A DNA stretch of 42,059 nt from Clavulina sp. PMI_390 (lineage: Eukaryota > Basidiomycota > Agaricomycetes > Cantharellales > Hydnaceae): the NCBI GenBank assembly GCA_015039315.1, contig WIDE01000130.1:21655-63713 (forward strand), given 5' to 3'. The position numbers were made by a program, and so were the translations under genes. Positions 5,172-42,059 of this stretch are shown here, piece by piece. The first letter of the stretch is position 1; each line of letters starts with the position of its first letter. Under the pieces are notes generated by a model. It did not search any database, was not told where the DNA came from, and saw nothing but the letters and a program-made list of their open reading frames with translations.

Positions 5172-6722
5172 AATGCTGTGATTGACCCTACGGTGTATGC
5201 TCCCAGCTTCAGCTTCCATTGTTCCCCTGCTGTGTTTCTCCCCGACGTCGGAACCTGCGCACACTTCTGCTCGAATATGCGCTCCCACACTAGCATCGAC
5301 GAGTGGTTCCGCAAGGAGCCTGGCCAGTGCATCCCAGAAGGTGGAGGGCACGAATTGAGGGTATATCTAGGCCCCTCGTCCCTGGACCAAATCGCCACCG
5401 CGGCTATGATCTCACGCCCGCACGCCAAGTTCCTCGATGTCTTTGAACAAAGCAAGCAGTACTGGCGAGAGCTTACGATCGACTACGCTGACGGGTCATT
5501 CGATGGCTCCTCCGAGAGCTCATTTGGCGGGAGTGACGACACTGACGTCTCGGACGTTGATGTGATCAAGCTCGAAGAGGTCATCCTTGGTGGCACATTC
5601 TCGTCTCTCCACCGCCTCAAGGTCTTCGGACCCCCAGGTGAAAGCCGTCCTATGATGCTCCCCCGAGGGTCTGCTCTCCCCAAGCTTTCACACCTGGAAG
5701 TCTACAACCGAATGCTCCATACCGAGAACGAGTTATTCGCCGAGCCTTTCCGCCACTTACACGAACTCATCCTCACTCTTCCTCCATATCTCGATGAGAC
5801 CTCTTCTTCATGGACCTCGCTTCTTTCCCACAACTTGTTCCCAAAGTTGCGGAAGTTGCGAATTTGTGGCCTCCAACCAGGTCATGTGGAGCGGTCCTTT
5901 ATTGTTGATCATCAGAACATAGGGACGGACGATCACCGCTTGCTTCTAGAGCACCTCCAGCAGCTCAGCATTGGCGTCACGCGAGCAGGGACCCTCAAGT
6001 GCCTGTTCGGCGCACTGAAACTCTGCTCTCTGCGCACACTCTCCATTGATGGGTTCTGGGACGGGGCTACCCTGCCTCAGGGTTTACTTCAGCAAATCGT
6101 AGGTTTTTTTCGTTTCAAATCATGACTGTTATCAGGCACGGTTCTGAACACATCTTGTTCGGGATGGGTGTGTATTAGGCTCTGTGCGCCCCGCAACTTC
6201 GCTCATTTGAGCTGGACCCTCATTGTTCGCACATGAGCCTCGATCACGTCAAGAGCATCTTGGACGAACTCGCAGCCGAAGCAGCCAATCTCTGGCCGCT
6301 TTCCTTGACAGCCGTGCGCGCAGGGTTCAAAATTGGTCGCTCAAGTCCGCCGGCCTCGTGGTCCAGCAGCGCCAGTGCGAGTCCCATCGACGCTGACGAG
6401 GAGATTGCGAGCGATAGTGATGACGAAGCGTACTCTATCACATCGATGCAGGCGAACTGCGGGGCTCCAAAGGTGATGCTCCCGCCAAGGGTCCTCCGCA
6501 AATACGAGCTCAGTGTGTTGGAGCTCGCGCGAAAGCGCCTCCCAGAGCTTACAGTAGTTGGAGTGGTTACGCTTTCGCAGCAATACCGAATAACGCTGGA
6601 TAAGCTCGTTCGTATCGAGGTCAGTCAAAAGAAACACTTTTGAGACATGGCCCTATTCTAATCCTCGATCTTTGTGATAGTCTCTGCCCATCCGACCCTC
6701 AAAAAGCATTTGGGGCGCATGA
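5172..6722 (+). CDS. F-box/LRR-type protein, N-terminus missing or not located
   Basis: Three exons: about 5172-6088, 6179-6619 and 6681-6722. Introns GTAGGT...TTAG and GTCAGT...ATAG are in phase and restore one frame ending in TGA at 6720-6722. The first in-frame ATG is at 5277; a stop at 5169-5171 closes the frame upstream. The body has LRR-like repeats (LHRLKVFGPPG, LSHLEVYNR, LHELILTLPPYL, LRKLRICGL, LRTLSIDGF), as in the large basidiomycete F-box/LRR families, preceded by a WRELTI segment and an acidic Ser/Asp-rich insert near residue 110. No F-box is visible. Either an upstream exon was missed or the gene lost its N-terminus. It converges on the adenylate cyclase gene. Confidence 0.5.
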
Positions 6723-21208: not shown

Positions 21209-22864
21209 ATGGCAAGTTGCTCGCTCCAATCACTTCCGGTAGAACTGCTGCTTAATGTCGTGGAATATCTCGATGTCATCAGCATCATTCGTCTTTCCTG
21301 GGTAACGTTTGTTTCGAGCTCTTGAGCCAAGGTGGTTGTTGCTCATCGTTGGGATGGTTTTCAGGCCTCTAAAGGACACCACAGCACTCTTGGAGCCTCG
21401 AGGCCTTTTTGGCATCGATATTGCCGCTTGCTTCTCCATGAAGAGCGCCTGCCATCGTCGTCCTTTGACCTTGACTCTCTTAACATTCGTGAGCTTGTCC
21501 AGCTTGCCACTCGTTCCGAAAGGATCGCGCGAGCTGCCGATCCGAAATACTCACAGAAACCTACACATGGCCGCCGAACACAATTCAAGATGGACCATGA
21601 CCCAGAGTTCGACATAAACTTCTCTGGGCCCCATCTGACTCCAGGTGGTCGCTGGTTACTGTCCCTCGCTCTTCGCAGCCGCGACAACTCAATGCATATT
21701 CTGTGTTGGGATACCAATCAAGCTGACTCTGCTGATTGTCCCTTGATTCTTCCGGTTGCATCTGCCGAGATCGAGCCTCTCACTTCCAAACCTGCGGCTC
21801 AGCTATATGATCTCTACAATCCAAGCTATGATCCACGCCTTCAACTATACTCCTTCTTTTTGTCTGAAAGGGCACTTTATCCAGGGTACTCCCTTCTATC
21901 GCTGCTCATCCTGCTCCTTTTCTGAAATTTCATGACCAGATCTCCAAACTTCAAGCAGTGCACGGCAATTCTAATCGAAATGAAGGACATGGGGCCTCTC
22001 CCTCCTTCTTTTTCTTTCCCAGATCACTCCAAGAGGTGGTACCACGGCATGGAGACGAAATTTCGACATTCCGATCGCTGGGCCGTCATCGAAAATCCAG
22101 GCCATGAGCCAAGATCGATGGTGTGGGACTCACAGAACGGTCAAAGTAGTGACTATCCTGTTGCTTCTGATGGTGTGACCACTTTCGACAGAATTTTGGC
22201 TACTCGCGATGGCGCCATTATGCGAGTGAAGGGTGAAGTGCGCGGGAGTTCCCTCATTCTCCACTTCTCTGCGCCGTCAACGACGAACGCGGTAACTCTC
22301 ATTCGATCCAGAGTTATTGAGGTGCCTAAAACGCTGGGATCGATACCTTTTCGATCATCGGATCTCATCTTTCCTTTTGTGTTCACTGGTGGGACAGTAC
22401 ATCTCCTGGGGTACAGCACCGCGACGCTTGTTCACATCGAGTGCTACACACGCTTGAACTACTTCCATGCAGCGGTAGCTGTAGCGGGGGATGGAAGCCT
22501 CCACGAACTTCCTAATGAACAGTGGCGCCGGAATGAGCATCTCATTCCCTTGTGGACGTCCAAGCCGTCATCTTACTTCATCCTCGACCACACGGCGGGT
22601 GAAGCCCATAGTAGCGCTAGACCTGCCCCTTCAAGCACTATATCTCTACGTGGCGACAACTTCTTCTTAAAATGCTTCCCCTATGCCATCCAAAACTCCA
22701 TCGTCAAACCACGAGTATTGTTAGAGGTGCAAGGTCGGCCCTCAGATGTTGGGGTCACCATAAGCAAAAGTTGTAAGAGTGTTTGCTTACGCTCAGGCCA
22801 GTGGACATTCACTTGGAGAGATCGCAATCGTCAGCACATTGTAACATTCATCCGGTATGACTGA
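21209..22864 (+). CDS. F-box protein, array copy A
   Basis: Exons 21209-21301, 21365-21885 and 21940-22864 encode 512 aa. Exon 1 is the F-box (SLPVELLLNVVEYLDVISII), the Skp1-binding module of SCF ubiquitin ligases. The remaining ~480 residues have no domain I can name; they recur in all copies with marks such as LATRSERIARA, PGGRWLLSLA, HILCWDT, RWAVIENPGHEPRSMVWDSQ, WRRNEHLIPLWTSKPSS, CKSVCLRSGQW and a terminal RYD. The repeated GRW...WD pattern suggests a beta-propeller-like fold, which is inference. First gene of the array, next to the housekeeping PRA1 gene; in the first conserved GGRW-like pair copy A has DRW instead of GRW. Confidence 0.85.
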
Positions 22865-23318
22865 AAGTATATTAGCCTACGTTTTGATTGGATTCTACTG
22901 GATGGGTAGTACAATAATCATGAGGCTCTTGCTTTCTCCTGCCGCTCTATCATAGTTTGGTTTCTGTCACCTGCCGATGCAGCTTACGTCGCAATGAAAA
23001 ATACTTCCGGACCGCTGGAGCTATCGCCTCATACGTCGCCTTCCAGGCGAGAAACATGGAGCCTTGTGTTGTGTCGGTTCTTCGGATTCCACGTGGGGGA
23101 CGTGGGTAGGTAGGGCCTGTGTTGGTCCTCTATTCGGCTTAGGATCCTCCATGTATCCAGCCATTTCTTTTACTTCACGCTACACATTACAGCAGGGCTT
23201 TTAGATGGATATTTGAAGCTCACAGTCTCATACATTCATTCTGAACGATGGACTGCACTGGCCTTGTTGCGTTCGAGGGGAAATTTGCGGGGCCAAACAA
23301 TGCCCGTGGCCAAGGATC
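22865..23318. promoter_or_regulatory. spacer A-B
   Basis: No gene and no trace of the secreted-protein family was seen. The block TTGTTGCGTTCGAGGGG...CCAAAC at 23263-23300 lies 20-55 bases before the copy B start and matches the one before copy C closely. Confidence 0.4.
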
Positions 23319-24979
23319 ATGCCCAATATTTCCCTGCTATCAATTCCAGTAGAGCTGCTACTGAAGATTGTGGAATATCTCGACGTCTTCAGCATAATAC
23401 GCTTATCTTGGGTGAAATCGGGTTTGAGCTTCCCCAGGTCGGAGTCTTGTGGCTCATCGCTTGAACCTATCTCAGGTCTCTAGAGGACACCACAGCGCTC
23501 TTGGGGTCTCTCGGGCCTTCTGGTCCCGATACTGCCGTCTCCTCTTGCAAGACGAGCGATTGCCGTCATCATGCTTTAACCTTGATACCCTCAACGTTTC
23601 CGAGCTCATCCAACTCGCTACTCGTTCTGAACGGATTGCACGAGCTCTTGACACGCAATCCCCCCAAAATCCTTGCCGTGCCCGTAGAGCACAGTTCCAA
23701 CTGGGTCATGACCCAAGCTTCCACATAAAACATCTCGATATTTATCAAGCTCCCGGTGGTCGATGGGTGCTGTCCCTTGCCTCGAACAGTCAAGATAACT
23801 CAATTCACATCATGTGCTGGGATACCTCTGAAGCTGATTCCGATGTGGCTCCATTGATTCCTCCCTCCGCTAGTGCCGAGCTTAGGCCATTTGCACCGAC
23901 GGGCACGGCAATGGTATATCACCTCCATCCTCCAACATATGATCCAAAAACTCAGCGATATTCCTGCTTCATAACTGGGGTCGCTAATCTTCCAGGGTAT
24001 GTCTTTCAACTCCGTTGTCGGCTTTTTACTTGCTAAACCGCAGATTGCTAGAACTTCGGGCTTCCGACAATGTATCACGATCCCCGTCGAGATGGAAGAT
24101 AGGGATCCACATCCACCCTCTTTCTCTTTTCCTGACCAAGCCACCATATGGCTTCGAGCTCCAAGGACTGAGTTTCAGCCTTCCGGTCGCTGGGCTGTCA
24201 TTTGCAGCCCGGCCCATGAGCCAAGATCAATTGTCTGGGACTCCCAGAGCGGGCAGACCAGTGACTACCCTGTTGCCCGTGATAGCGCGACAACTTTTGA
24301 CAGAATTGTCGTCACCCATGATGGTATCATCTTACGAGTACAGGGCGGGATACATATGAATAAGCTAGATGTCCGCTTCTCTCCAGCTTCAGCGACGGAG
24401 GTTGTGATTCCTGTCCACTCTACGTCGTTTACGGTGGCTGGAACTCGACACTTCGTACCTTCTCACGCTTCGGGCCGCACTCAATTTCTCGTTTTCACTT
24501 CTGGCACGATACGCCTTCTGGAGCAAAGCACTGCGACGCTTATTCAAGTCGAGTGCCATACATTCACGCATCGCTTTTGCACCGCAGTCACTGTGTCCGC
24601 GGATGGAGCCATCCAAACTCCCCGCAACGAGCATTGGCGTCGGAACGAGTATCTTATTCCTTTGTGGACGTCCAAACCTTCATCCCACTTCATTCTCACT
24701 ACTCTGGTAGACCGACCTCCCACAAGAGCTAGATTCGGTGTGGCTAGCACCACGGTGACTCTGAATGATAAAAAACTCTTCTTGAAGTACATCCCCCCTA
24801 CCAGCAAAACTTTGGGTGTGGAGCCCCAATTTACCCTAGATGTGCCAACACGGCCCTTTGATACTGGCATCACGATGGAGAAAGGGTGCAGAAGCGTTTG
24901 CTTACGCTCAGGCCAGTGGATGTTCGTTCGGAAAGGGCACGATAACTACCATGCTGTAATGCTTATCCGGTATCGTTGA
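23319..24979 (+). CDS. F-box protein, array copy B
   Basis: Exons 23319-23411, 23476-23996 and 24052-24979, 513 aa. F-box: LLSIPVELLLKIVEYLDVFS, with Phe for Ile in the usual DVIS. Exon 2 starts VSRGHHSALG and holds RYCRLLLQDERLPSSCFNLD and PGGRWVLSLASNSQ. Exon 3 enters through a GATTGCTAG acceptor preceded by an alternative CCGCAG only nine bases upstream; the downstream AG is the one that keeps the frame and aligns with copies A and C. The last residues are RYR rather than RYD. Closest in appearance to A and C. Confidence 0.85.
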
Positions 24980-25536
24980 TTGTAATTCAATCCACGCATT
25001 CGGTCACTGGCATGACGGTAATCAACTTCCTAATAACACTCACCAAATTGTAGAAGTTGCTGGCAAAACGAGTCTGAAGGTCTCACTGCTACCATTTCAT
25101 CCCCACGGTGTGTTTGACCAGTCATGCAAATGCTAAGGATATCTTGACGTTTGGTCAAACCGAGGTTATTGGCGCGTGGCGTCAGCATGGGCGTCAGTGG
25201 TACCCCACAGCATGTCGTCACATAGATACATATTTCTGCGCGTTGGAAAGTGTGCTCCCAATCCGCCCTCGCGGCAGGAAATCCGGACTGCGCTTGAGGA
25301 GTTGAGGATCAAGCTTAGGTTCATGTGTTTTGCTTTTGTAGTGGCTTCTCTTGCATGTGCTAGCCGTTAGGCAAGGGGACCTGCTCCATAATTATTTCCT
25401 CTTATTTATTGTTCTAATGTGTATCTCACAATCAGCTCCTCCAAGTTGTTGTGCGATGATCACTGTCTACCATAGAGTTCATTTGTTTTGTTGCGTTCGA
25501 GGGCCCATCCACAAACCCAAACGTTACCCACGCTCA
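24980..25536. promoter_or_regulatory. spacer B-C
   Basis: No supportable gene. The conserved upstream block of copy C is at about 25487-25522 (TTTTGTTGCGTTCGAGGGCC...CCCAAAC). A partial second version, GTTGTTGTGCGA, is at about 25445-25456. A 9-bp inverted repeat at 25112-25120/25152-25160 was noted but not given a function. Confidence 0.35.
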
Positions 25537-27226
25537 ATGACAGTTAAGACCAGTTTGTCCTTGGATTCAGTTCCGGTAGAGCTGCTTCTTAATATCGTAG
25601 GATATCTTGATGTTATCAGCATAATCCGTCTATCTCTGGTAAATTGATCCAGAGCTCGAGGCCAGATCCCCAGTAGTACGGCTGACGGATTTCATCTCCA
25701 GGCTTCTAAACGACACTACAATACTCTTGGACTTTCGCATTCCTTCTGGCATCGATACTCTCGCCTTCTTCTACACGATGAGCAGCTACCGGCGTCATGT
25801 TTCGACCTTGATGCCCTCAACGTTCCCCAGCTTATCCAGCTGGCTACTCGTTCTGAACGGATTGCGCGAGCTGCTGATCCAAAATATTCGCAAAACCTTG
25901 GCACCGCTCGTCGATCTCAGCTTCATTTAGACCACGAAAAAGCCTTTCACACCAAACAGTCGAATATCCACCAAACTCCGGGTGGTCGATGGGTATTGGC
26001 AATTGCATCGCGTAGCCAAGATGACTCACTTCACATTATGTGTTGGGACACAACTAAGGCTGATGGAGATAGATTGACGTCGATATTTCCCACCGCTTGC
26101 GCGGAGATAAAGCCTTTTGCACCTAAAGGCACACGAATGGCATATACACTCCACCCTCCAACATACGACCCAGACCTCCAAATATACTCCTACTTTGTCT
26201 CTGGCACCGATCTCTTCCCAGGGTATGTTGCCTGATTTCTCCTTGTTCTCCCCTTGACTCATATATCTCATGATTAGAACGTCAGGCTCTCGGCAATGTG
26301 TTGCGATTCCAATCGAGATGAAAGCAGTGGATCCCATTCCTCCTTCTTTTGGCTTTCCAGATTGCACCGCAACATGGCTCCAGGCTTCAAGGACCGAGTT
26401 CAAACCTTCTGGTCGCTGGGTTGCCATTCACAACCCTGGTCACGAACCAAAATCGATCGTGTGGGATTCCCAAACTGGTCAGACTAGTGAATATCCCTTC
26501 GACCCTGATAACAGTGACAACCAATTTGATCGAATTGTGGTAACGCATGATGGCCTCGTGATGCGAGTGCAAGGTGGAGCGCGCGCGAGAATTCTGGTGC
26601 TCCACTTCTCTGCACCCCCAGCGTCGCGTGCCTTAACTCTTGCTCGTTCCACGACCTTTGAGGTACCTGGTGATCCACTCACTGGATTCACTCTCGCCTC
26701 AAAATCTATGGCAGCCTCAGACTTCATCACCTCACAGGTCTTTACTTCTGGGAAGATACGCCTGAACGAAAATAGCAATGCAACGCTTGTTCAAATCGAG
26801 TGCTACACAGCTATGGACCGCTTTCATACAGTTGTGGCTGTATCTGCAGATGGGACGCTTCATCAAATCCCGGATGAGTCATGGCGCTACAACGAACCTC
26901 TGATCCCTTTGTGGACATCCAGACCATCTACCCATTTTCTTCTCTCTACCTTAGCGAATGCACCATCCATTATGGCTTTGTTTGCGTCTACCAGCAACAT
27001 GGTGACTCTCGATGCTGGACAGCTCGTCTTGAAATGCATCCCTTCCACCTTCCCGGGCTTGTACAGCGAAAAAAAAGTATTGTTGAATGTGCCAGCTCTT
27101 CCATTTGATGATGCTGGGGTCACTATGGATGGGGCTTGTAGAGGTGTTTGCTTGCGCTCAGGCCAGTGGATGTTTCTTCGGACAGGTGACGGCAAGCGCA
27201 TTGTGATACTTGTGCGGTGTGATTGA
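25537..27226 (+). CDS. F-box protein, array copy C
   Basis: Exons 25537-25638, 25702-26222 and 26278-27226, 523 aa, the longest copy. Exon 1 is 102 nt because of three extra N-terminal codons (MTVKTSLSLDSVPVELLL), and its last codon is Leu where the other six have Trp. Exon 2 has no early Met, so simple ORF searches see only its second half; it reads ASKRHYNTLGLSHSFWHRYS and carries the usual LATRSERIARAADPKYS and GGRWVLAIA. Exon 3 has a longer middle segment (TFEVPGDPLTGFTLASKS) and ends in RCD. Followed by a relic of the secreted-protein gene. Confidence 0.85.
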
Positions 27227-27461
27227 TTGTGAACCATTCCGCCCATCACACCAGACACCCAGTTCAGCGAGTTAGCTTTTCTTTTCCCGCGGTGCTCGAT
27301 GTATTGCAGACTTACTGCCAGTGAAGTCAGAACCTTGCTTCACGCAGTCCAATTTATCGATTATATTCAGATGAGATAGCTTTATTCGGCCCCCCCACTC
27401 CGATACGTTGACGCGTCACCGATCAACGGCTAGACTCGCTACAACCCGATCTCGCTAGCCT

Positions 27462-27530
27462 CTACCAAAAGTATGAGAACGTTGGGGTGCTCGTTATGGG
27501 GGGCGTATCAGTCACTGTGGTCGTGGGGAC
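27462..27530 (-). pseudogene. relic of Thr-rich secreted protein gene (s1)
   Basis: Only the last ~22 codons survive, reading TTTVTDTPPITSTPTFSYFW before a stop; they match the C-termini of s2 (TATPPVTSTSTVSHLE) and s3 (TATPPVTSTSTVSYLR). The signal-peptide exon and the CCTTTTTLDQ exon are absent from the remaining sequence up to the copy D start at 27717. The position, just downstream of an F-box copy on the opposite strand, is the same as for the complete copies. Confidence 0.65.
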
Positions 27531-27716
27531 CTGTACTTGAATGCATACTAGCAGGGCATCGAGTTTCAAGCATGATGATGAGGTAACTCTGAATGGAAAT
27601 ATTGGTGGCCAATACTTATCGTGAATGCCTAGAAGCGGTTGTGTGACGTTGTGGCTGTGTGTGCGAATCGGAACGCAGGTTACCAAACACTAGTCTCACC
27701 TGAGAAATTGCTTCTT

Positions 27717-29398
27717 ATGACCGGTTTCTGTTTTCAATTACTGCCGATAGAACTTCTGTTTAAGATCGCGGGACATCTGGATGCCATCACCATAATTCGG
27801 TTATCATGGGTAAGTCTTTCCAAAGCTCGAAAGCCAGATCTAGACTAGCGTACCAGCAGCTTATAGATCACAACTCCCTAGGTTTCCAAACAGCATCACA
27901 GCGCTCTCGGGCTCTCGAGGTCGTTCTGGCATAGATACTGCAGGCTCCTTTTGCATGACGAGCGAATCCCGCTGCTATGCTTTGACCTTGATGCCTTCAA
28001 CATCTCAGAGCTCATTCAGCTCGCCACTCGGTCCGAAAGGATCGCGCGAGCTGCCGATTCGGGATACTCGCAAAGCACTAGATTCGCTCGTCGAGCGCAA
28101 TTTCAGTTGCATCATGACTCAGCCTTTCTCATTAAGCAATCGAATATCCATCAAACTCCCGGTGGCCGATGGGTATTGGGCCTTGCTTCTCGCAGCCAAG
28201 ATAACTCGATGCATATCATGTGCTGGGATACCACTAGAGCCAATCCAGAGGCGCTACCGTTAATACCCCCCACCACTTGCGTTGAGATCAAAGCTTTAGC
28301 TTACACAGGGATCAAAATGGTGTATGAACTCCATCCTCCAACATATGATCCAAACCTGCAAATATACTCCTGCCTAGTATCTGGGCGGGAAGCCTTCTGG
28401 ATGTATGCTTCTTAACTTCTCATCAGTCTTCTGGCTAGCTAAACTTCTCCGACATCAGAACATCCATTTCCAAGCGCGGCATTGCAATTCCAATCGAAAT
28501 GCGAGATACAGCTCACCAACATCCGACTTTTCGCTTCCCGGACTGCACCACAACGTGGATCCAGGATTCTATGACCCATTTTACGACTTCTGGCCGCTGG
28601 GCCGCCATTCATTACCCTGGTCGCGAGCCTCACTACTCTAGTTATGAATCCAGATCAGTCGTGTGGGACTCCCAAAACGGCCAGACCAGTGACTACTCTG
28701 CCGGCCCCCATATTAGCGAGAAGCAATTTGATAGAATTGCGGTCACGTACGACGGTGTCGTTGTGCGAGTTCACGGCGAAGTGCGCGCGAGGACCCTTGT
28801 TTTGCACTTCTCTGCACCCCCAACGTCGAGTGCTGTAACTCTTACTCTTCCTAAAACCACTGAAGTACCTGGGATCCCAAACTCTGTCCCAGGTGGCTCA
28901 AACTCCATTTACTCATGCATTTTTGCTCCCGGGATAATACGCCTTGATGAAAAGAGCACTGCAACCCTTGTTCACATTGAGTGTTACACAAAATTGGATC
29001 GCTTTCATACAGCTGTGGCTGTATCCCCAGATGGGACTCTCCACAAACTGCCTGATGAGCCATGGCGTCGCAACGAATATCTTGTCCCTTTGTGGACATC
29101 TAGACCATCAACCCACTTTCTTCTCTCCACCCTGGCGGATAAACGGTCCATTCCGAATGTTTTTACCTCTAACCACATGGTGACTCTTGATGCCACCCCG
29201 CTCGTCCTGAAGTGCATCCCCTCCGCCCTCGCAAATTTGAGTAGCCAAAAACAAGTCGTGCTGAGTGTACCAACTCTGCCGTTTGAGGCTAGGCTCACCA
29301 TGGACGGGCGTTGTATGGGCGCTTGCTTACGCTCAGGTCAATGGATGTTTCTTCGAGCGGGCGACAAGCAAGTCGTGATGTTTGTTCGATATGATTGA
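27717..29398 (+). CDS. F-box protein, array copy D
   Basis: Exons 27717-27809, 27882-28402 and 28459-29398, 517 aa. F-box: QLLPIELLFKIAGHLDAITI, the most divergent in the A-D subgroup. Exon 2 (VSKQHHSALGLSRSFWHRYC) ends in FWM, the donor splitting an Ile codon (AT|A) instead of the Gly codon (GG|A/G) split in every other copy; phase is unchanged. Exon 3 has a short insertion after the GREP motif (HYSSYESRSVVWDSQ). Conserved tail CMGACLRSGQWMF...RYD. The upstream block GTGTGCGAATCGGAACGC...CCAAAC lies at 27658-27690. Confidence 0.85.
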
Positions 29399-29669
29399 GC
29401 GTTGACCAAGCCACGCCTCCTACACGCGTCGTTCCACAAGTCAGTCTTTTCTTCCTCTCGGTGCTCGTTGGATTGCAGACTCGGAAGGCGGCACCAAATT
29501 GATTAAATAAACATCAGGATTTTGCTACTAGGGTGTAGCTTGAGGTCCAACCATAATTCCGTCGTAGTCTGGTTGTAGTCGGCGTTCTCTTTCACCCCCA
29601 CCCCCCGATTGCCACGACGCAAATTAACACTTAGGAGCCCTTCATGCTAAGAGTTCACTCGTACTAAAT

Positions 29670-30202
29670 TTATTCAAGGTGCGAGACAGTGGAGGTGCTC
29701 GTTACCGGGGGTGTGGCAGTCACTGAAGATGTGCATGCCGTAACTGTCCAGGTGGATGATGGATTTGGCCCGTAATTAACGAAAAGATAACTGCTAGTGA
29801 CAGATGGGAAGGTGCAGCTCCCGTGAGGCTCGAGAGAACGGCCAGCAAGGGCCGTGGTAGTGGGGTAGACGACAACCCAGGATGTGGAAGTATTCGTCGT
29901 GACTGCAAAATTGAAGAATCATAGACAGACATAAATGAATCAGCCACCGTCCTTAGATATAAAGCTGTGATTTAAGGGAGTAGTCGTATACCTTGATCGA
30001 GAGTATTGGTGGTGGTACAGCACGGATAAAGGAAGGTGGACGTAATGTAGTGTCCAATCCCCGTACGAGGGCATGTACTCCTAAATGGAGCTCAGAAATC
30101 AGAGAAGAAAGAGTGGAGAATAGTATGGAAGACCCAATACTGCGCAGAGACGCCTGCGACAACAGCCAAGCCCAAAGCAGCGGCATGAACGCAAGGCAGC
30201 AT
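29670..30202 (-). CDS. small secreted Thr-rich protein, copy s2 (intact)
   Basis: Three exons (30141-30202, 29992-30080, 29670-29902) sum to 384 nt, 127 aa. Residues 1-21 are a signal peptide (LGLAVVAGVSA). The mature part begins QSTCPRTGIGHYITSTFLYP, continues CCTTTNTLDQ, a Thr-rich stretch with TSWVVVYPTTT, then LEPHGSCTFPSVTSS and a Thr/Ser-rich end (STWTVTACTSSVTATPPVTS). It carries cysteines at CPRT, CC, SCT and TAC. The family is unknown to me; Thr/Ser-rich secreted proteins are often O-glycosylated and wall-associated, which would be inference. Intron 2 uses a normal donor (CAAG|GTATAC), unlike s3 and s4. Confidence 0.6.
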
Positions 30203-31064
30203 GTTATGAACGGGACCTATGCGCGAAGGGATGTCTATGCTTCGAACGAGCTTAGCCGGCACAGGATTTACATAAATGGACTGCCATCGACGACATTTTA
30301 CGTCGTTGCCAGCAACCAATACATCTACGCTGTGATGTACCTTCAATCCTGTTCGTATTGTGGGGATAGGGCGCGGAGAAAATCCGGGTCAGGTTATTTA
30401 CGTGCGGCTTATAGCACGAGCATTAGTTAACACGGTGTAAACTACGCACACATGTAGACATCTTCGGGGTGAGCAGTGGCAGTGTGCGACATAAGCTGAG
30501 TGTGAGCTCTCAGAGGATGCTGAGGCTGATTATGTGTAGGATTTGAGTCATGAACGATAAGGAGCGGATCTATGACCCTGTTCAACGAACAATCCCCACA
30601 TTCGGACGATGCAGGGTCTGCAAGGAGTATCCAGGAAGAGTGTCCACTCTAGGATGTATAGGGAACAAATTTCAAGGACAGTGATGGAGGGATTCATCAG
30701 CCAATACCCTCAGACCCTTTGTTTGGCTCGTTTGGACCGTTTGGCCTGTTTAGAGGGCCAAACGGGCCAAACTCTAAACGGATTAATTCAATCCAAACAA
30801 AGGGTACCCGTTTCAGAGACGAAAACACGCCAAACAGGCTGAAAAACCGGCCGACTTTTTCTGATGTTGGAGGCCAAGATTCATAATGAATGGCCAGCAG
30901 GAGTCTGTGGGGGGTTTTTTTGGCACAGCTTATCAGCTATCCTGCAGTGAGAATAATATTAGTTTCAGGATGACTTGATCGTGCTGTGGTTGTGTGTTGT
31001 GCGAACCAGAACGCCAAATTTGGAAGGTTACCAAACACTATTCCACTCGACAAATAGATTTTTT
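30203..31064. promoter_or_regulatory. spacer s2-E with promoter blocks and a foldback element
   Basis: The s2 upstream block TTTACGTCGTTGCCAGCAAC starts at 30297. The copy E upstream block TTGTGTGTTGTGCGAACC...CGCCAAATTTG...CCAAAC lies at 30989-31038, about 30-75 bases before its ATG. A foldback sequence occupies 30714-30805. No gene seen in the rest. Confidence 0.45.
30714..30805. mobile_element. 92-bp foldback, MITE-like
   Basis: A perfect 13-bp inverted repeat, ACCCTTTGTTTGG at 30714-30726 and CCAAACAAAGGGT at 30793-30805, bounds 92 bases. The inside is filled with GTTTGG/CCAAAC units (CTCGTTTGG, ACCGTTTGG, GGCCAAACGGGCCAAAC), so the whole can fold on itself. Size and terminal repeats suit a non-autonomous DNA transposon remnant. 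No clear target-site duplication was seen, so a simple palindromic repeat is also possible. Confidence 0.4.
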
Positions 31065-32665
31065 ATGTTTGGTTCATCCTTTCAGTCGCTGCCTGTAGAG
31101 TTGCTGCTAAAAACTGTGACGTACCTTGATGTCATCACCATAATTCGTCTCTCTTGGGTGACATCACTTTAGGCTCAACGGTTACCGCGTCCTAACTTAC
31201 GAATTGATCATGTCCTCAGGTCTCCAGAGCATGCCAAGAAGTTCTTGGAGCTTCGCGAGCATTTTGGTATAGATATTGCTGTCTCCTTCTTTACGATGAG
31301 TACCTGCCAGTGGCACGTTTTAACCTCGATGCCCTCACCATTTCCGAACTTGTCCGTTTGGCCACTCGTTCCGAAAGGATTTCACGGGCGGCCTGTTCAG
31401 AGAATCGTATCGGTCCTCCATATGCTCAAAGAGTCCAATTCCAGCTAGACTACGACCGAAACCTCTACCTCACGCCGTCCAATATACACCAAGCTCCTGG
31501 TGGTCGATGGATCCTAGCCCTCGCTCTTCATACGACCGATGAATCGCTTTATATTATGTGCTGGGACTCTTTAGAGGCCAAATCAGACATTTTAACCTCA
31601 TTTCTTCCCATTGCAACGTCCTGGATCGCGCCCATAGAAGTACAGATGGGATATGAACTCCAGCCTCCAACATACGATCCAAGCTTACAGCTATATTCTT
31701 GCTTCGTAACAGGGGCGGATTCAACCACAGGGTATGTGCTGCCAATTCTGACTCTCTCACTCTGGCACTAAAATTTACCCAGGCAGTGCGTCGCGATCCC
31801 GATTGAGATGCGATGCATCAATCACCATCCACCGTCCTTCAGTCTCCCAGAACATTCTATTACTTGGACTGAACTCCATAAAAGCACATTTCGGCCTTCT
31901 GGTCGCTGGGCTGTCATAGATGACCTCGGCAATGAGCCTAGATCGCTCTTATGGGATTCTCACAGCGGTCAGATCAGGGAACTGCCCATTCGACCGCCTC
32001 CCCGATCGGTTTGCGAAAGTATCGTTGTTACCCATGATGGTGTTGTAATGCGGGTTGAAGGGGAACCGAGCGCGAATACCCTCATGCTCCGCGTATCTTC
32101 AATGAGTACGATGACTCCTACTTGTTCCACAACCATTGAAGTTCTTGGCGTCACAGAGGCCAAAGATTTCCGACCTCCAGACTACCTCGACTACTCCATA
32201 ATCACTTCTGGGACAATTCGTCTTATGGAGAACAGCACGGCCCCGCTTGTTCAGGTTGAATGTTCCACGTCCAAATATCGCTTTCACGTGGTGTTCGCGG
32301 TTTCTCATGATGGGGCTATCCACAAAACATCCGAGGATCACTGGCGTCACAATGAGTATATTGTCCCTCTGCCGTTATCTAATAAAGCAAGCCACTTCAT
32401 CCTCACTTCTGGAACCTCTCTGGGCACCATATCCAACACGGTGACCGCGAATGATGAAGCCCTTCATCTGGTATGCATCTCCAACGCCGGTAGAGCTTCT
32501 GACGATGAAGGACAAACCGTGTTGAAAGTGCCACTTCAAGATTCAGATGTTGGGTTCACTATGAACGATGTCTGCCAAAGCGTTTGTGTAAGATCTGGCA
32601 AATGGATTTTTATGAGGAAGAGGTACGGTCACAAGTACACTGTGATCATCATTCGGTATGATTGA
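31065..32665 (+). CDS. F-box protein, array copy E
   Basis: Exons 31065-31157, 31220-31731 and 31783-32665, 495 aa, the shortest copy. F-box: SLPVELLLKTVTYLDVITII. Exon 2 is 512 nt, nine less than in A-D and F, still phase 2; it starts VSRACQEVLGASRAFWYRYC, the type shared with F and G. Exon 3 holds PSGRWAVIDDLGNEPRSLLWD, SHSGQIRELP, THDGVVMRVEG, TSGTIRLMENS, CQSVCVRSGKWIF and ends in RYD. It lies between secreted copies s2 and s3. Confidence 0.85.
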
Positions 32666-32937
32666 GCCTGGGCCGGTTCGCTTATCCTGCTTGGCACATC
32701 ATTTTGTATGTTGGACTTTCTTCTTTTACTCGCTGAACCGCAGACTAAAAGCGTGCCAGCAAAATCATTATGACAAGGTTTGGGCTTTTGGCCCTTCGGC
32801 TGCGATTGTTCCGGTTCACAAACTATTCTGTTGCAGTCTGTTTTAAGCAGATGTTCCCGATCCTTCCCTACCCCGATTAATACGACGCAACTGAACGGCT
32901 AGCGAGCTCTCGCGCTTGAGCCCACTCCCACTGAAGT

Positions 32938-33471
32938 TTAGCGAAGGTACGAGACAGTGGAGGTGCTCGTCACGGGGGGTGTAGCAGTCACGGTGGATGT
33001 GTATGCTGTAACTGTCCATGTGGATGATGGATTTGGCGCAGCCGTGTACGATATCTCGCTGGTAGTAACGGTTGGGAGCGTACAAGGGCTTTCGCGCGGT
33101 TCGAGGGCGCGGGCAGCAAGGGAAGTTGTAGTGGGATAGACGACGACCCAGACTGTAGAAGTGGTGGTGGTAACTGTGAAATTCGAGTCGGGGAAGATAC
33201 GGGGGTCCAAAATCAGTCATCATAAGAACGCGATGGACGTTGAATCGAAAGAGCGCATGCCTTGATCGAGAGTAGTCGTGGTCGTGCAGCACGGATAAAG
33301 GAAGGTGAAGGTGGAGTAATAGTCCGTTACCGTCCGAGGACACTCTCTGCCAGGTCAAGACCTCGAATCAGGCAAGGACAGGGAGACAATCGTGGTGGGG
33401 GCTTACGATTGGGCGAAGACGCCAGCCGCCAAAGTAAGGGTCAAAAGAACAGCTTGGACGCGAGTCAGCAT
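32938..33471 (-). CDS. small secreted Thr-rich protein, copy s3 (intact)
   Basis: Exons 33407-33471, 33261-33346 and 32938-33173 sum to 387 nt, 128 aa. Signal peptide MLTRVQAVLLTLTLAAGVFA, then SECPRTVTDYYSTFTFLYP, CCTTTTTLDQ, a Thr run with TVWVVVYPTTTSL, LEPRESPCTLPTVTTSE and a C-terminus STWTVTAYTSTVTATPPVTS. Intron 1 is GTAAGC...GGCAG. Intron 2 appears to use a GC donor (CAAG|GCATGC) with acceptor TTTCACAG; the paralogue s2 has GT at the same place. A TATAAA (minus strand) lies about 72 bases upstream at 33543-33548. Function unknown. Confidence 0.58.
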
Positions 33472-34178
33472 GGCGTGGTGAGGCGGAGGATTGATGAAGC
33501 TTGATAAGGTTTAAGCTTCAGCTGGGCCTGGCGGCTCGAACCTTTATACGTATGTTGCTGTCGACAACTATTTACGTATGACCGGCAACAATTAAGTTAT
33601 CCACAGTATGTGCACCCTCACCTGTATTCGCAATACAAAATAGGGAACCGGTAAACCCCCCAATTGAGCCCGTCGGTATAAAGCGTTCACGCAGCGTGAA
33701 TTGAGTAAAACATTCGTGGAATTCACCGATCACCACCATTGACGGTCCAGAATACATATCCATGTTGAACATCAGAGGCTGCCGATGGCACGAACCGGGA
33801 TGTACGCGTGTGTCCCCGTAGAGTCCCACATTTTTGGAGGGTTTCGGCTCTATAAAGAGCTTCCAGAAAGAGTATATTGGGACCACAATGTCCAGCTCAT
33901 GAGGATTCATGCACTATGAAACATGCTGGAAGAGCATCCAGTTCAAGAACAAAACGACAGAGTACATTTAGACGTGTAAGTGTTCCATATTTCGTTGAAG
34001 ATCTAGACCATTCGAATGAAAAGTTGCGGAAGCACATCGATTACGATTCAGGTAGAAGAATTATGGCGTGGGAGATCTCGTACCAGCGCTTAGATTGTGT
34101 TTTGCGAGGGCGCTCTTGCCAAATATTCCCAAGTTTCCCAGACGCCGAATATCACATCGACTCAGCCAGTCAGATGCT
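33472..34178. promoter_or_regulatory. spacer s3-F with promoter blocks
   Basis: Near s3: TATAAA on the minus strand at 33543-33548 and the shared block TTTACGTATGACCGGCAACA starting at 33571. Near copy F: the block TTGTGTTTTGCGAGGGCGC...GCCAAA at about 34095-34123. The stretch 33600-34080 has no supportable gene. Confidence 0.4.
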
Positions 34179-35811
34179 ATGGCCTTCGTCTCCTTGCAAT
34201 CGTTGCCAATAGAGCTAATGCTTGAAATTGTGGCGTATCTTGACGTCATCAGCATCATCCGTCTCTCTTGGGTAGCATAGGTTTCAATCTCCAAAGCCAG
34301 ACTGTTGTGCCTAATCGGTCGATTGTCGTCTTAGGTCTCAAAAAGATATTACGAAGTTCTTGGAGCTTCCCCAATATTCTGGTCTCGATATTGTCGTATT
34401 CTTCTTCATGATGAACGTCTACCAGCGTCATGTTTTGACCTGGACAATCTCAGTGTATCTGAACTCATCCGATTAGCAACTCGTTCCGAGAGGATAGCGC
34501 GCGCTGCTGATCCCCGATACTGGTTGAGTCCGCTCCATGCTCAAAGGGCCCAATTTCAGTTAAGCCACGACCCGAATTTCAGCATCAGGCCATCGAATAT
34601 TCACCAGACTCCGGGTGGTCGATGGGTACTGGCGCTAGCGCACCGTGAAGAAGATGATTCACTACATATAATGTGCTGGGACTCCAAGCGAGCCAGCGAA
34701 CATAGCTCTCCTCCGATTTTTCCTATCGCGTCTACGCTGGTCAGGCCTTTTGGGCCAGCTAGCATGGGCGTGGAATATCGACTCTGGCCTCCAACATATG
34801 ATGTAAACTCACAGAAATATTCTTGTCTCATCACCGCGGTTGCTAGAATCATGGGGTATGTGCCTCAAAGTATCTTCATTGCATTGCTCCGCTAAACCTC
34901 CTAGTATTAGGATATTCCGTTTTAGGCAGTGGTCTGCGACCGCAATTGAATTCCAGTGTATTGAGGACCATGCTCCGTCTTTCCACCCCGTGGAACACTC
35001 CCATACTTGGGTGCAAGCTTTTGGAGCTGGTTTTAGACCCTCTGGCCGCTGGGCAACTATTGAGAGGATCAGCGACAAGACCACCTCGCGTGTTTGGGAC
35101 TCTCAAAGCGGTCAGATAAGGGATTATCCTATGGATCCTCCTGCCCCAAGAAAACTTGAAAGCATGCTTGCGACTCATGATGGGCTCATAATGCGAGTGC
35201 AGGGAGAACTTCGTGCAAGCTATCTTCTCCTCCACTTCTCAACACCTGCGACGAGCACAACTACTGGCGCCTGCTCCACCAAGATAAGAGTCCATAGGAC
35301 AAAGGGCGGCGTCGTTCCCCGACCTCCTCGTGACCTAGAATACTCCATTTTCACTTCCGGAACAATTCGGCTTCTCGAAAATGTCACGGCTACTCTCGTT
35401 CAGGTCGAGTGTTCCACAATTGCATATCGCTTCGACATTACTGTGGCCGTTTGTCAGGACGGGACCGTCCACACTTTACCCGAGGATGATTGGCGTTGGA
35501 ATGAACATCTTGTCCCCCTTTGGACATCCAAGCCATCAAGCCACTTTAGCATCGCTTCTGAGAAACCTCCGAGTCCTATCTTTGGTTCTGACATGGTGGC
35601 TCAGGGGGCTGAAGCCCTCTCTCTGATGTACACCCCAAGAGCTCATAGCAGCGAACGTCGAGCGGTACTAAGCGTGCCATTTCGAGAATCTGATCCTGGG
35701 ACCACAATGGACAAGCACTGTCAAAGTGTTTGCGCGCGTTCCGGCGTGTGGATGTTCGTTCAGAGTAGTAGCGATGACAAGCATACCATCATACTCATTC
35801 GATATGAGTGA
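34179..35811 (+). CDS. F-box protein, array copy F
   Basis: Exons 34179-34271, 34335-34855 and 34926-35811, 499 aa. F-box: SLPIELMLEIVAYLDVISII. An out-of-frame ATG at 34174 lies five bases before the chosen start, which is set by alignment of the F-box with other copies. Exon 2 (VSKRYYEVLGASPIFWSRYC) contains LATRSERIARAADPRYW and PGGRWVLALAHRE. Exon 3 contains PSGRWATIERISDKTTSRVWD, SQSGQIRDYP, TSGTIRLLENV and SGVWMFVQSSS, and ends in RYE. Groups with E and G. Confidence 0.85.
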
Positions 35812-36097
35812 GCATGGATCGAACCTCTTCCTACAACAAGCACATATTCAAATTTACTACGCCCCCGACCGTGCTCGCTGCTGCCAGAGAATAGAAGCTT
35901 CGAATTTACCAGTGCAGAGAGGATATCGGGATCTTGCCTTTCCGGCAGCAACACAACTTCAACCATCGTCTAGTCATAGTCTATCTACAACAGACATTGT
36001 TGTTTCTCTGACCCCTGGAATTCATCAACACCACCCCTATCAGTCGTCAATCAATGGCCAACGCAAACTCTCACGCCAAGCCCGATCTTCCTAATGT

Positions 36098-36626
36098 CTA
36101 ATACGTGATGGTGGACGTTACAGGAGGTGTGGCAGTCACTGTGGACGTGTATGCCGTCACCGTCCAGGTGTATGATGGGTCAGGCCCGTACTGAGTGGAC
36201 ACCTCGCTAGTAGTGACAGTTGGGAGGGTGCAAGGGCTTTCGCGTGGTTCAAGAGCGCGTGCGGCAATGGAGGTCGTGGAGTGAACAACGACCCAGGATG
36301 TGGGAGTGTAGGTCGTGACTATAGAAGTCCAGGAGGGAGGTGGATATTCATCCCCAAATTAATTATCATGGCTATACGACGGGAGCCCAATTAAATCGCC
36401 ACATGCCTTGATCAAGGGTGGTTGTGGTAGTGCAGCATGGCTAAACGCCGGTGGTCGTGGTGGAGTAATAGTCTGTCACTGTACGAGGGCACTCACTGTT
36501 CAAACCGTTTGATGGTCAGATCACAAAAAGGGCAGTAAAGATGCTAGGGACTCACGATTGAAGTTGAGCGGAAACTCCTGCCGCAAAAGCCAAGGCCAAA
36601 ACAACAGCTTGGACGCGAGCTAACAT
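36098..36626 (-). pseudogene. small secreted Thr-rich protein, copy s4, in-frame stop
   Basis: Exons 36556-36626, 36407-36495 and 36098-36318 sum to 381 nt and align with s3. The signal peptide is intact (MLARVQAVVLALAFAAGVSA), followed by QLQSECPRTVTDYYSTTT. In exon 2 the codon matching Tyr of s3's LYPCC is TAG, so translation would end after about 42 residues. The rest (PCCTTTTTLDQ, LEPRESPCTLPTVTTSE, SYTWTVTAYTSTVTATPPVT) remains open to a normal stop, which points to recent inactivation. Intron 2 has a GC donor (CAAG|GCATGT) like s3. A TATATA is at 36699-36704, about 75 bases upstream. Confidence 0.6.
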
Positions 36627-37352
36627 GTTTTGGATGGGACTAAGGCTGAAAGAAGCGAGAGGATAGTTAAGCTTCACAGATAGGCTTGGCAGCCCCAGTA
36701 TATACAGGTGTGTCTTCATTCAATGATGATTTACGTACTACTGGCAGCAATCAATACGTATATGGTGCCGTGCAACCCTAGCTCCGTTCGTATTGGGGAT
36801 AAGAAACGATCAGAAACTCTGAACAAAGTTGTTTCCACGCAAGTCACAGTGTGATCATTTACCCCAGTTATATTACGTCAATCTCGGGAGGATGACCGAA
36901 CCCTAGGACCGACAGCATCGGTGCGGAACTCATGTAGGATCGGAGCGAGCAGGGGCCAGGGCCATAATGGTTAGACCTGTAGACCGTGGACCATAGATTT
37001 TCCAGTGGCGGAAGAGTTCGATAGTGCTCGAGGCCCCCACAAGAAACGTGGTGAGATCCCGCTAGGATGCACTCAGAAAGTCGCCAGCGGCAATGGCGGT
37101 GTAGCGGTGTCGTACTACTCGCAGGTCTGAAGCGTGAAGACAAAGCGGATTGGAATGAATGGAGTCGGGATCTAGTGTGGAAGATTGGAAGAGACCCTTC
37201 AGGAGTGATCCTTCATCGCGCACTCGCTCTCCTTTGGTAAGAATAGTATTAGTTTCTAGCAACATTGTAATTGTGTGTTGTGCGAGTGTAACGCCAAATT
37301 TGCAAACTCAACGGGTGGCCAAACATTGCGTCCGCTGAGCAAACGACGTGCC
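36627..37352. promoter_or_regulatory. spacer s4-G with promoter blocks
   Basis: Near s4: TATATA at 36699-36704 and the shared block TTTACGTACTACTGGCAGCA starting at 36730. Near copy G: TTGTGTGTTGTGCGAGTG...CGCCAAATTTG...CCAAAC at 37271-37324. No gene was recognised in 36780-37260. Confidence 0.4.
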
Positions 37353-39031
37353 ATGTCTCATTTTCCTCTGGAATCGCTGCCAATAGAGCTACTCCTCATG
37401 ACTGTCACATATCTCGATATCATCTCCATTATTTGTTTCTCTTGGGTAACTATCGGCGGCTTCGAGCCTAAACACACAGATTGTCCTAACTGTATATGCT
37501 GACATGTCGCCAGGTTTCTAGGATGTGTTATGAAACTATTGGAGCGTCTCTACCTTTTTGGGCGAGATACTGTCGCATCCTTCTTCATGACGAGTGCCTG
37601 CCGTGGGGATGCTTCAACCTCGACGCTCTCAGCGTTTCCCAGCTCGTCCGGCTGGCGACTCGTTCTGAAAGGATTGCACGCGCCGCTGACCCACGGTACT
37701 CTCTGGGCCTTCCTTATTCCCAGAGAGCGCAGTTCCAGCTAGGGCACGACGCAAATTTCTGGATCCAACCGTCGAATATTCATCGAGCTCCAGGTAGCCG
37801 TTGGGTAGTAGCCCTTGCTCTTGATACCAGTGATTATTCACTGCATATGATGTGCTGGGACTCTGCTGGGGCTAAATCAGATGCCTCCCCCTTACTCTTT
37901 CCAGTTGCATCGTCGCATATTGATACTCCTGCAACAACGGGCACGAGGCCTCGGACCATACACAAACTCCACTCTCTGACATATGATCCAGTCTCACAAT
38001 CATATTCTTGCTTGATACATGTACATGTAATTGGCAGGATGCCAGGGTAAATGTCTCATAGGTTGTTCATTCTACTCCCTCACTGACCTTTCCAATTCAG
38101 ATCATTACGTTTTATCGATTCCTTCGCAATCCGAACCGAGTTGCGCTGCACAGAGTGCGGCATTCCTCATTTCACCTTCCCCGAGAGTTCCATCACATGG
38201 ATTCAAGCTTCTAAAACCAGGTTCCTCCCTGCTGGCCGTTGGGCCGTCGTTGAGTACCCACAAGGCGAGCCAAGATCGCTCGTGTGGGATTCTCAAAGCG
38301 GCCAGATCAACGAGTATCCCGTTCAACCTCATAACTATGATGAGTCTGATTTCATCCAAAAATTCGAAACCATTGTCGCTACCTATGATGGCGTTGTGAT
38401 TATGATACAGGGTGAGGTGAAGGTCGACACTCTCGTTCTCCACCTCTCCGCACCTTTAGCGACGAGTCAGAAGACACTGACACACTCAAGGACCATTGAA
38501 GTCTTTGGGTCCATTGAAACTGGCACTTTCGGGACCCTCGAATATTTACACTACCACGTATTCACTTCTGGTACCATGCGCCTTCTTGAGAACTGCACTG
38601 CGACGCTCGTTCAAGTCGAATGCGACGCTGGCGCGTATCACTTTTGCACGGCAGTAGCTGTATCTAAAGATGGGATCGTCCGGGAAATTAGTGAGCATCC
38701 TTGGCGGTGGAACGAACATCTCATCTCTCTGTGGACATACCGACCAGGGTACCACTTCATCCTCACGACGGGGGAGCCTCCTATGGAGGGAATCACGACT
38801 GACTCAGTGACTCTGAATGACGATGCTCTCTTCTTGACGTGCATCCCCCGAGTAGTCAGGTACTCCGAGGGCGATAGACGCGAAGTGCTGAGAATACCAG
38901 TCCAAAAGTCCGATGCTGGTATCACGATGAACAAGAGTTGCCAAAGCACTTGTATGCGGTCAGGCGTCTGGATGTTTGTCCAGAGCAGCAACAATAACAA
39001 GCACACCGTGATGCTGGTTCACTATGATTGA
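37353..39031 (+). CDS. F-box protein, array copy G
   Basis: Exons 37353-37445, 37514-38046 and 38101-39031, 518 aa. F-box: SLPIELLLMTVTYLDIISII, followed by CFSW where others have RLSW. Exon 2 is 12 nt longer than standard because of extra residues before the intron (HVHVIGRMPG). Exon 3 holds PAGRWAVVEYPQGEPRSLVWD, SQSGQINEYP, TSGTMRLLENC, CQSTCMRSGVWMFVQSS and ends in HYD. In exon 2 the usual PGGRW is PGSRW. Last gene of the array; no secreted-protein copy follows it. Confidence 0.85.
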
Positions 39032-40259: not shown

Positions 40260-42026
40260 TCAATCCACTCTGCTCCCACTGCCCACAGGCAAAGGCAGGT
40301 AATCCTCAGCCTTACCCTTCCCTCCTCGGAGGTTGGCAAGGCGCGCACGGATTTGCACTCCGTAGAAGCGGTAGATGACGACACCACCAGCAACAAGGAC
40401 GATGAAGGCGAGGAAAGAGGTGACGGAGGAAGAGGTGGGGACGGGGATAGATGAGGAGGAAGTGGCAGAAACTGCGGGCTCAGGAACAGCGGCGTCTACC
40501 TCGGGCTGCAGGTTGGTCCAATGGAATTAGTCAGTGATGGTTAGCAAGGTGGAAGATTCACGGGTCAGCACAGGGATGATTCGTCAAAGCATGGCAGGTT
40601 CAGCACAAGCAGGCAATGCACGGATAAGAGCAAGTGATCACGCAGCGGATTAGAGAGCAATTTTTCAAAACAATACGTCACGACGCATCCAATTATTCCA
40701 TTCATAGTAGGAGCACATTTTTTGTGGTGGAAGTTCCACGAAGAAGATATGACGAAGGAAGAAGTTAACGAAGTTAACAACGACGCTTAGAGATCCTCTT
40801 TGGGCGGCACCTTTTCGCCAGCAGCAGCCTCGGGAGTCTCCTGGGGAGGAACAGGGAGCTATAGGTAAGGGGAAGAAGATCTCAGCAATGTAATCACAAC
40901 AGAAACAGGGTATGATGGAGAGCTCACCTCGCCAGCGTCGGCGACGATAACATCAACAGTGGGCCTATCTTGGGCACCCTTGCTCACGTTTTCTAGAGTG
41001 GAAAGATTTAGTTACACTGGGGAGTGCTGGGTGACGCGAGGTGAGTGCTTACCGATAGCGTGGACAACGTCCATACCGTCGATGACGCGACCAAAGACGA
41101 CGTGACGGCCATCGAGCCAGGAGGTCTTGACGGTGGTGATGAAGAATTGCGAGCCTTAGAGAAGAAATGTCAGTCGGGCAAGCTACATTGACTAGATGAG
41201 TCTCAAGTACCGTTGGTGTCCTAGTTAGAGTCAATTGAATTAGTGAGAAAGAACTTCGGGTGAATAATGCGTCAGCACATACCTTGCCAGAGTTAGCCAT
41301 GGAGAGAACGCCAGGGCCGGTGTGCTTTAGCTTGCTAGATATCGAGGTGAAATACATCAGTCAAGCCGAAAGACTACTTGCGTGGGTGTAAGGCGACGCA
41401 CAAGTTCTCATCCGCAAATTTGTCTGAACAAGCACGACCGTCAATATTCGCCAAAATCACAGCGATGTAGAGGAATACTCACTGCCGTAGATAGACTTGC
41501 CACCAGTGCCATCACCGCGAGCTGGAGAAAAATTGATGAGGGAAACTCATATTGACACGTAGCATTTCTCCACGTACTGAAGTCACCACCCTGGATCCTG
41601 TGGTTCACACGACAGCGTCAGCACAAGTTCATGGCGTGAACAGAACAAAAGCAGCATACATGAAGTCTTTGATAACACGGTGGAACTTGGAGCCCTTGTA
41701 GCCCATACCTTCCTCGAGAGGAGTACCATCCTTCTTGACACCAGTTGCCAGCGCACGGAAGTTCTCGGCAGTCTTGGGAACAGAGCCGCCGTAGAGACCC
41801 ATGGTGACTGCACGAAGAGTTTAGTATTGAGCATATGAGCACGGGGAAGAGGATGGGTAGACTGACTCCTGCCCATGGACTCGTCACCATGCTTGATGTC
41901 GAAGTAGACGACGCTGGTAATCTTGGGTTGCTTTACGGGCTTGTCGGCGTCGGCGGCATTGACGCGAGCATCAAACGCCCAGATGGCGAAGAGCAAGACG
42001 AGGAAGGGGGCGAAGCGATAAATCAT
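40260..42026 (-). CDS. cypB: ER/secretory cyclophilin (peptidyl-prolyl isomerase) with two candidate last exons
   Basis: Starts at ATG 42024-42026 with a signal peptide ([20 protein letters not shown]). Exons then give [106 protein letters not shown] and [13 protein letters not shown]. The catalytic Arg (FHRV), the SQFF segment and the cyclosporin-contacting Trp ([11 protein letters not shown]) are present, so an active prolyl isomerase of the secretory pathway is expected. DTNG comes from a 10-nt micro-exon at 41211-41220. After [10 protein letters not shown] the frame can enter exon 40787-40858, ending PPKEDL, or exon 40260-40505, ending in a Ser-rich linker, one membrane segment ([16 protein letters not shown]) and a basic cytosolic tail. 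Both keep phase 0. Confidence 0.9.
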
Positions 42027-42059
42027 TTGGTTGTAAGGGTTCGCAATAGCCCACTCGTG

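Follow-up and report, generated by a model that had tools for sequence, protein, structure and literature searches.

Seven diverged F-box genes in a tandem array of Clavulina sp. PMI_390: a probable panel of SCF substrate receptors, one half of which carries a second repeated gene

The stretch of DNA analysed here (the window, 42,059 nucleotides) is part of contig C36 in the 39.4-Mb genome of Clavulina sp. PMI_390 (Cantharellales, Hydnaceae). Between positions 21209 and 39031 it holds seven intact F-box genes, F1 to F7, all on the plus strand and all with open reading frames. The first of these F-box/propeller genes (the propeller being predicted), F1, occupies 21209..22864 (exons 21209-21301, 21365-21885 and 21940-22864; 512 residues) and is followed by F2 at 23319..24979 (23319-23411, 23476-23996, 24052-24979; 513 residues), F3 at 25537..27226 (25537-25638, 25702-26222, 26278-27226; 523 residues) and F4 at 27717..29398 (27717-27809, 27882-28402, 28459-29398; 517 residues). 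The remaining genes are F5 at 31065..32665 (31065-31157, 31220-31731, 31783-32665; 495 residues), F6 at 34179..35811 (34179-34271, 34335-34855, 34911-35811; 504 residues) and F7 at 37353..39031 (37353-37445, 37514-38046, 38101-39031; 518 residues). The models were made by eye and by script and were re-derived with a splice-aware alignment of a protein profile to the DNA, the profile being built from the same seven proteins. All introns are GT-AG. For intron 2 of F6 we prefer an acceptor 15 nucleotides earlier than the alternative, as it suits the family better (a 55-nucleotide intron and 504 residues); the alternative acceptor gives 499 residues.

A first-pass annotation of this DNA had described a fixed exon architecture, and the splice-aware alignment reproduces its figures. 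Exon 1 measures 93 nucleotides in six of the seven genes (102 in F3), exon 2 measures 521 in five (512 in F5 and 533 in F7), and the intron phases are 0 and then 2 throughout, with intron 1 spanning 62-72 nucleotides and intron 2, with the preferred F6 acceptor, 51-56. The sequence motifs listed in the same annotation hold for the majority of the copies but not for all: F5 reads RSERISRA for RSERIARA and LWDSH for VWDSQ, F7 reads PGSRW for PGGRW, and only F1 and F2 carry C.SVC.RSGQW without change. Between any two of the proteins 43-63% of residues are identical across about 500 positions, and as a query F2 matches the large exons of F1 and F3-F7 with E values from 6e-149 to 9e-63. In the public record F2 corresponds to DL93DRAFT_352987 (P0001), a hypothetical Clavulina sp. 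PMI_390 protein that is identical across 513 residues. The public model of F1 (P0004, 330 residues) has different introns, those of F3 (P0002, 563 residues) and F4 (P0003, 559 residues) carry N-terminal extensions, and the other three genes are not among the matches; with one exact model for seven genes, public gene models call for caution here. When 20 proteins of the family were run by tblastn against the rest of the window, with E values up to 0.1 admitted, no further F copies or remnants came up.

The first-pass annotation placed the seven paralogues head to tail on one strand. The shared strand stands, but the array is not purely head to tail, for three minus-strand genes are interleaved with it. 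In a repeat analysis the spacing is 2.1-2.2 kb across genes 1-4 and 3.1-3.3 kb across genes 4-7, and the long spacers hold a second set of repeats: a small gene of three exons, present there in three copies on the minus strand. S1 (29670..30202) encodes a small, apparently secreted protein of 127 residues rich in Thr, Ser and Pro, and S2 (32938..33471) a relative of 128 residues; both are open, and exon 2 of S3 (36098..36626) is interrupted by an in-frame stop codon. The second intron has a GT donor in S1 and a GC donor in S2 and S3. The S proteins begin with a hydrophobic stretch that, judged by eye, resembles a signal peptide, past residue 21 they consist of 48-51% Thr, Ser and Pro, and a Pfam scan of S1 and S2 returned nothing at E<=1. 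Each S gene stands head to head with one F gene (S1 with F5, S2 with F6 and S3 with F7) at a start-to-start distance of 707-862 nucleotides, and the F5-F7 half of the array is therefore built from a two-gene unit. This agrees with the split in the tree described below. A partner adjoins only three of the seven F genes, and one of these three, S3, is broken. The upstream regions of the three genes F5-F7 match each other at 67-74%, much of the alignment being the S gene itself, and the region upstream of F4 shares only short stretches (40-80 nucleotides) with them, so that we make no claim about promoters.

Relatives of the S genes were found on contigs C237 and C203, which are outside the list of contigs with F-family genes, and no S match was found in the F-family loci fetched from contigs other than C36, most of which reach only 1.5 kb past the match. 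For these reasons the pairing of S with F looks local, as far as the sequence comparison goes. On C203 (L045:1769-4592) two minus-strand S-like copies adjoin a gene on the plus strand whose F-box-like domain is of a different kind (E 9.5e-8), and on C237 the nearest long open reading frame checked beside the S-like gene has no F-box. The nearness of S-like genes to other F-box genes was not used as evidence, since it would have to be judged against the base rate of F-box genes. By eye, the spacer between F4 and F5 also has near-palindromic GGCCAAACGGGCC / GTTTGG motifs at 30720-30790, perhaps the remnant of a small mobile element.

The array belongs to a wider family. Counted by hand, there are 23 F-type loci in the genome, a lower bound: seven on C36, seven on C113, two each on C251, C159, C253 and C12, and one on C264. 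Sixteen relatives were modelled outside C36, one of them an additional C253 locus, and 14 are full-length or nearly so; the two from C12 are partial models only, one of which retains intron 1. Intron 1 is in phase 0 in seven of the 14. Exon 2 measures 509-524 nucleotides in the seven relatives that retain intron 1, and exon 1, counted from the ATG, is 93 nucleotides in the three in which the profile reached that codon (L031, L036, L038). With a family-wide profile intron 2 is in phase 2 in 14 of 14 relatives; a narrower profile called phase 0 in two of 13, and the partial model L036 gives phase 0 with both profiles. Because these relatives share the exon sizes and phases, comparison of the sequences indicates that the architecture is inherited with the family: it is fixed within the array, as had been noted, but a group of seven genes on C113 does without intron 1. 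In all seven of these exons 1 and 2 are fused. In the family tree, which takes in 13 of the 14 near-full-length relatives, the C113 genes group as a single clade adjacent to genes that keep the intron, and intron 1 was thus probably lost once on the way to them. The C113 genes (L015-L017 and L024-L027) lie at C113:317617-339578, six of them close together.

A sister F-box family (type B) gave 55 matches, 39 of which, counted by hand, cover at least 200 of the 236 residues of the C-terminal query. Like the F family, it is clustered (three copies lie at C36:4-13 kb), and the two families have in common, at weak E values, the middle region with the PGGRW...CWD motif; their C-terminal halves differ. 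Upstream of the window, C36:1-19800 (L039 and L040) holds a second interleaved array of at least three units of about 3.5-4 kb, in which plus-strand F-box genes of a third kind, by eye resembling leucine-rich repeat (LRR) proteins, alternate with minus-strand genes of the sister type. Two of these plus-strand genes were scanned and both are F-box-like (E 3.6e-7 and 0.0046, the latter below the curated cut-off).

Protein searches for F-family homologues outside Clavulina found none, all matches being from Clavulina sp. PMI_390 (6; 5; 3 of 136 candidates). In two of these searches the candidates scored numbered only some 7,990, and one of the two missed its own query member P0005; the result is therefore not a demonstration that homologues are absent elsewhere. 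Among the papers searched none joined Clavulina, F-box and expansion, and the name Clavulina sp. PMI led to a single paper, on algal-fungal symbiosis.

As the first-pass annotation had proposed, the seven proteins were aligned, placed in a tree and analysed for selection by site, all within one genome, and the copies proved to be diverged rather than near-identical. F1 to F7 form one clade (support 100/100), which together with the second group of seven on C113 and smaller groups elsewhere bears out the claim of expansion by duplication. Within the array F1-F4 form a clade (98/96), F5-F7 form another (90/93, below the 95/80 mark), and F3 and F4 are the closest pair (100/100); the branching order among F5, F6 and F7 is not settled by the tree. 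Pairwise synonymous divergence (dS) ranges from 0.84 to 1.99 and the pairwise ratio of nonsynonymous to synonymous change (omega) from 0.23 to 0.38. These and the following figures come from our own code, not from PAML, with sites treated as independent. A single ratio for F1-F7 gives omega 0.354. All seven terminal branches have omega between 0.28 and 0.44, each below 1 at p<=4.2e-5; two inner branches differ, one lying below 1 (p 0.014) and the other being indistinguishable from 1 (p 0.15). Every copy has thus been constrained. The youngest split in the array has a dS of 0.84, and S3 is the sole dead gene observed. Of the birth-and-death evolution that had also been suggested, no rapid turnover is seen inside the array.

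Diversifying selection, the other half of that suggestion, receives weak and uneven support. Model M2a is not preferred to M1a (p 0.15 with all 540 columns, 0.17 with the 489 left after removal of gap columns and 0.39 with 402, where three columns round gaps were masked). In the same order of column sets, M8 is preferred to M7 (p 0.006, 0.005, 0.010) and to M8a (halved p 0.007, 0.008, 0.041). Under M8 roughly 4-6% of sites fall in a class with omega 1.7-2.6, and a run with fixed branch lengths for M7, M8 and M8a left the ranking unchanged; at dS values of up to 2 such site tests are unreliable. The tests do not establish that strong positive selection is still at work. The distribution of constraint along the protein is clearer. 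Mean posterior omega rises from 0.33 at residues 6-52 to 0.50 from residue 99 onward (p 0.0006); inside the C-terminal domain loops average 0.58 and strands 0.42 (p 2.5e-6), and the 19 residues called helix average 0.64. A faster C-terminal domain with faster loops is expected of recognition surfaces and of relaxed loops alike. We read the sequences as pointing to an old duplication in which all seven copies were retained and the part predicted to bind targets evolved faster.

What these proteins do is suggested by their architecture. At E<=1, PF00646 matches all seven and PF12937 six. Contrary to the first-pass annotation, the F-box is not coextensive with exon 1, for exon 1 encodes 31 residues whereas the F-box-like match in F2 runs over residues 7-52. 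The C-terminal 400 or so residues are predicted, with medium confidence, to form a beta-propeller, a separate strand-rich domain at 97-513, which would bind the substrate. The proposal that these genes encode substrate receptors agrees with this combination of F-box and predicted propeller, and F1-F7 are most likely receptors of SKP1-cullin-F-box (SCF) ligases that work as FBXW proteins do. Mouse FBXW18/19/21, for example, have 466-469 residues (PMC13060343). Like F1-F7 (495-523 residues) they are several similar paralogues with an N-terminal F-box and a C-terminal propeller, here predicted; the WD40 sequence signature is absent from F1-F7. With no WD40 family matched at E<=1 in any of the seven, we do not file them as FBXW and only liken them to it in working.

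Taken as a whole, the data make it probable that the array is a panel of SCF receptors produced by tandem duplication and kept under purifying selection. The N-terminal F-box (about residues 6-57) would dock on SKP1, and the predicted propeller (about 97-513) would bind a target that the SCF ligase then ubiquitinates. Tandem duplication would have started from one ancestor that already had the short first exon and introns in phases 0 and 2, and the array would have divided into a compact half, F1-F4, with its 2.1-2.2 kb repeat, and an F5-F7 half whose larger repeat of 3.1-3.3 kb took in an S gene as well. Purifying selection would have retained the seven copies as their propeller loops drifted or adapted, and the outcome would be a panel in which each copy may have a different target. 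Several observations count against this account. Among three proteins scanned alone, F1 and F7 fall below the Pfam curated F-box cut-offs and F2 passes; no F protein has a WD40 profile match at E<=1; the predicted model has pLDDT (predicted local distance difference test) values <50 at 67 of 513 residues; its 34 Foldseek matches at E<=0.001 have low TM-scores (0.13-0.33 to the query); and the tests for positive selection disagree, M1a/M2a on one side and M7/M8 and M8a/M8 on the other. A search of solved structures with a profile of the seven proteins returned nothing beyond two weak matches, both to F-box proteins of other types (E 0.14).

Two further readings are compatible with a receptor panel and differ in the targets they assign to it. 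It is possible that these are developmental or housekeeping receptors with fixed endogenous targets, in fruiting for instance, which subfunctionalised long ago and without an arms race. Long retention, purifying selection and the lack of F pseudogenes in the window favour this, and F-box genes are among the functions enriched in a conserved developmental set of complex multicellular fungi, according to PMC8893723. A family found only in Clavulina sp. PMI_390 would be odd for housekeeping, limited as the protein searches were in reach. We regard it as rather unlikely that the array is instead an intracellular surveillance repertoire that marks foreign or non-self proteins and is kept by diversifying selection. 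Its loops do evolve faster than its strands, the M7/M8 and M8a/M8 comparisons are significant, the family is large in this genome, and there is a parallel in the F-box/MATH adapters of nematodes (PMC5392922); however, overall omega is well below 1, every copy is constrained, M1a/M2a is not significant, and dS values of up to 2 make the site tests unreliable. Neutral drift, in which unequal crossing over makes tandem copies that matter little to function, seems improbable. It would fit the many sizes of gene group across the genome, and it is named as a reading for plant F-box families in PMC3030570 and PMC7829749, but all seven frames are open after a dS of 0.84-1.99 and the terminal branches lie well below omega 1. 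An assembly artefact repeating one locus, the refutation that the first-pass annotation had foreseen, can be dismissed: nothing speaks in its favour, and only 43-63% of residues are common to the copies.

Expanded F-box families offer further comparisons with the receptor panel. Plant expansions have C-terminal parts of the LRR, Kelch and FBA types. Like the F array, the nematode and plant expansions are lineage-specific multicopy families with tandem copies and a faster target-binding part; positive selection is weak in the F array by comparison. The expanded nematode adapters, which are argued in PMC5392922 to mark foreign or non-self proteins, differ in having C-terminal domains of the DUF38 or MATH type, in place of the propeller predicted here.

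The S/F pairs invite another analogy. Plant self-incompatibility loci link an F-box gene to a partner gene and may be likened to F5-F7 with S1-S3. If the likeness went further, the pairs would be recognition modules, in which a receptor recognises a divergently transcribed, secreted partner, either in its own version or in a foreign one, and the two are duplicated as a unit. We think this highly improbable; a single array shows the pairing, one partner is dead, and linkage to a partner is confined to three of seven genes instead of running throughout the family. We know of no such module in a mushroom-type fungus, although no search for one was made. In the kss antidote/toxin modules of C. tropicalis an F-box gene is likewise duplicated jointly with a partner, as described in PMC12680543. 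In comparison with the kss and self-incompatibility modules, the partner in the F array lies beside only three of the seven genes, looks secreted and is broken in one case.

The array thus belongs to a large and poorly annotated F-box family of a Cantharellales fungus, propeller-like by prediction, whose groups differ in intron content, and one half of it carries a repeated gene for an apparently secreted protein. Taken whole, the array is a gene-family expansion of an ordinary sort, although the two-gene module deserves a closer look. Seven intact, constrained and diverged neighbours make a clean set for asking whether the targets of fungal F-box proteins are changing ones from outside or fixed ones inside.

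Elsewhere in the window, no tRNA genes were found. A large minus-strand gene at 7337-11658 has LRR, PP2C and guanylate/adenylate cyclase domains, and we take it to be an adenylate cyclase of the yeast CYR1 type; a plasmid search with a cyclase fragment gave no match and is uninformative. On the plus strand at 5172-6643 there are long open reading frames that by eye resemble F-box/LRR proteins, with no Pfam family at E<=0.01. At the far end, on the minus strand at 40800-42059, lies what by eye looks like a gene for a peptidyl-prolyl isomerase of the cyclophilin type, divided by many short introns.
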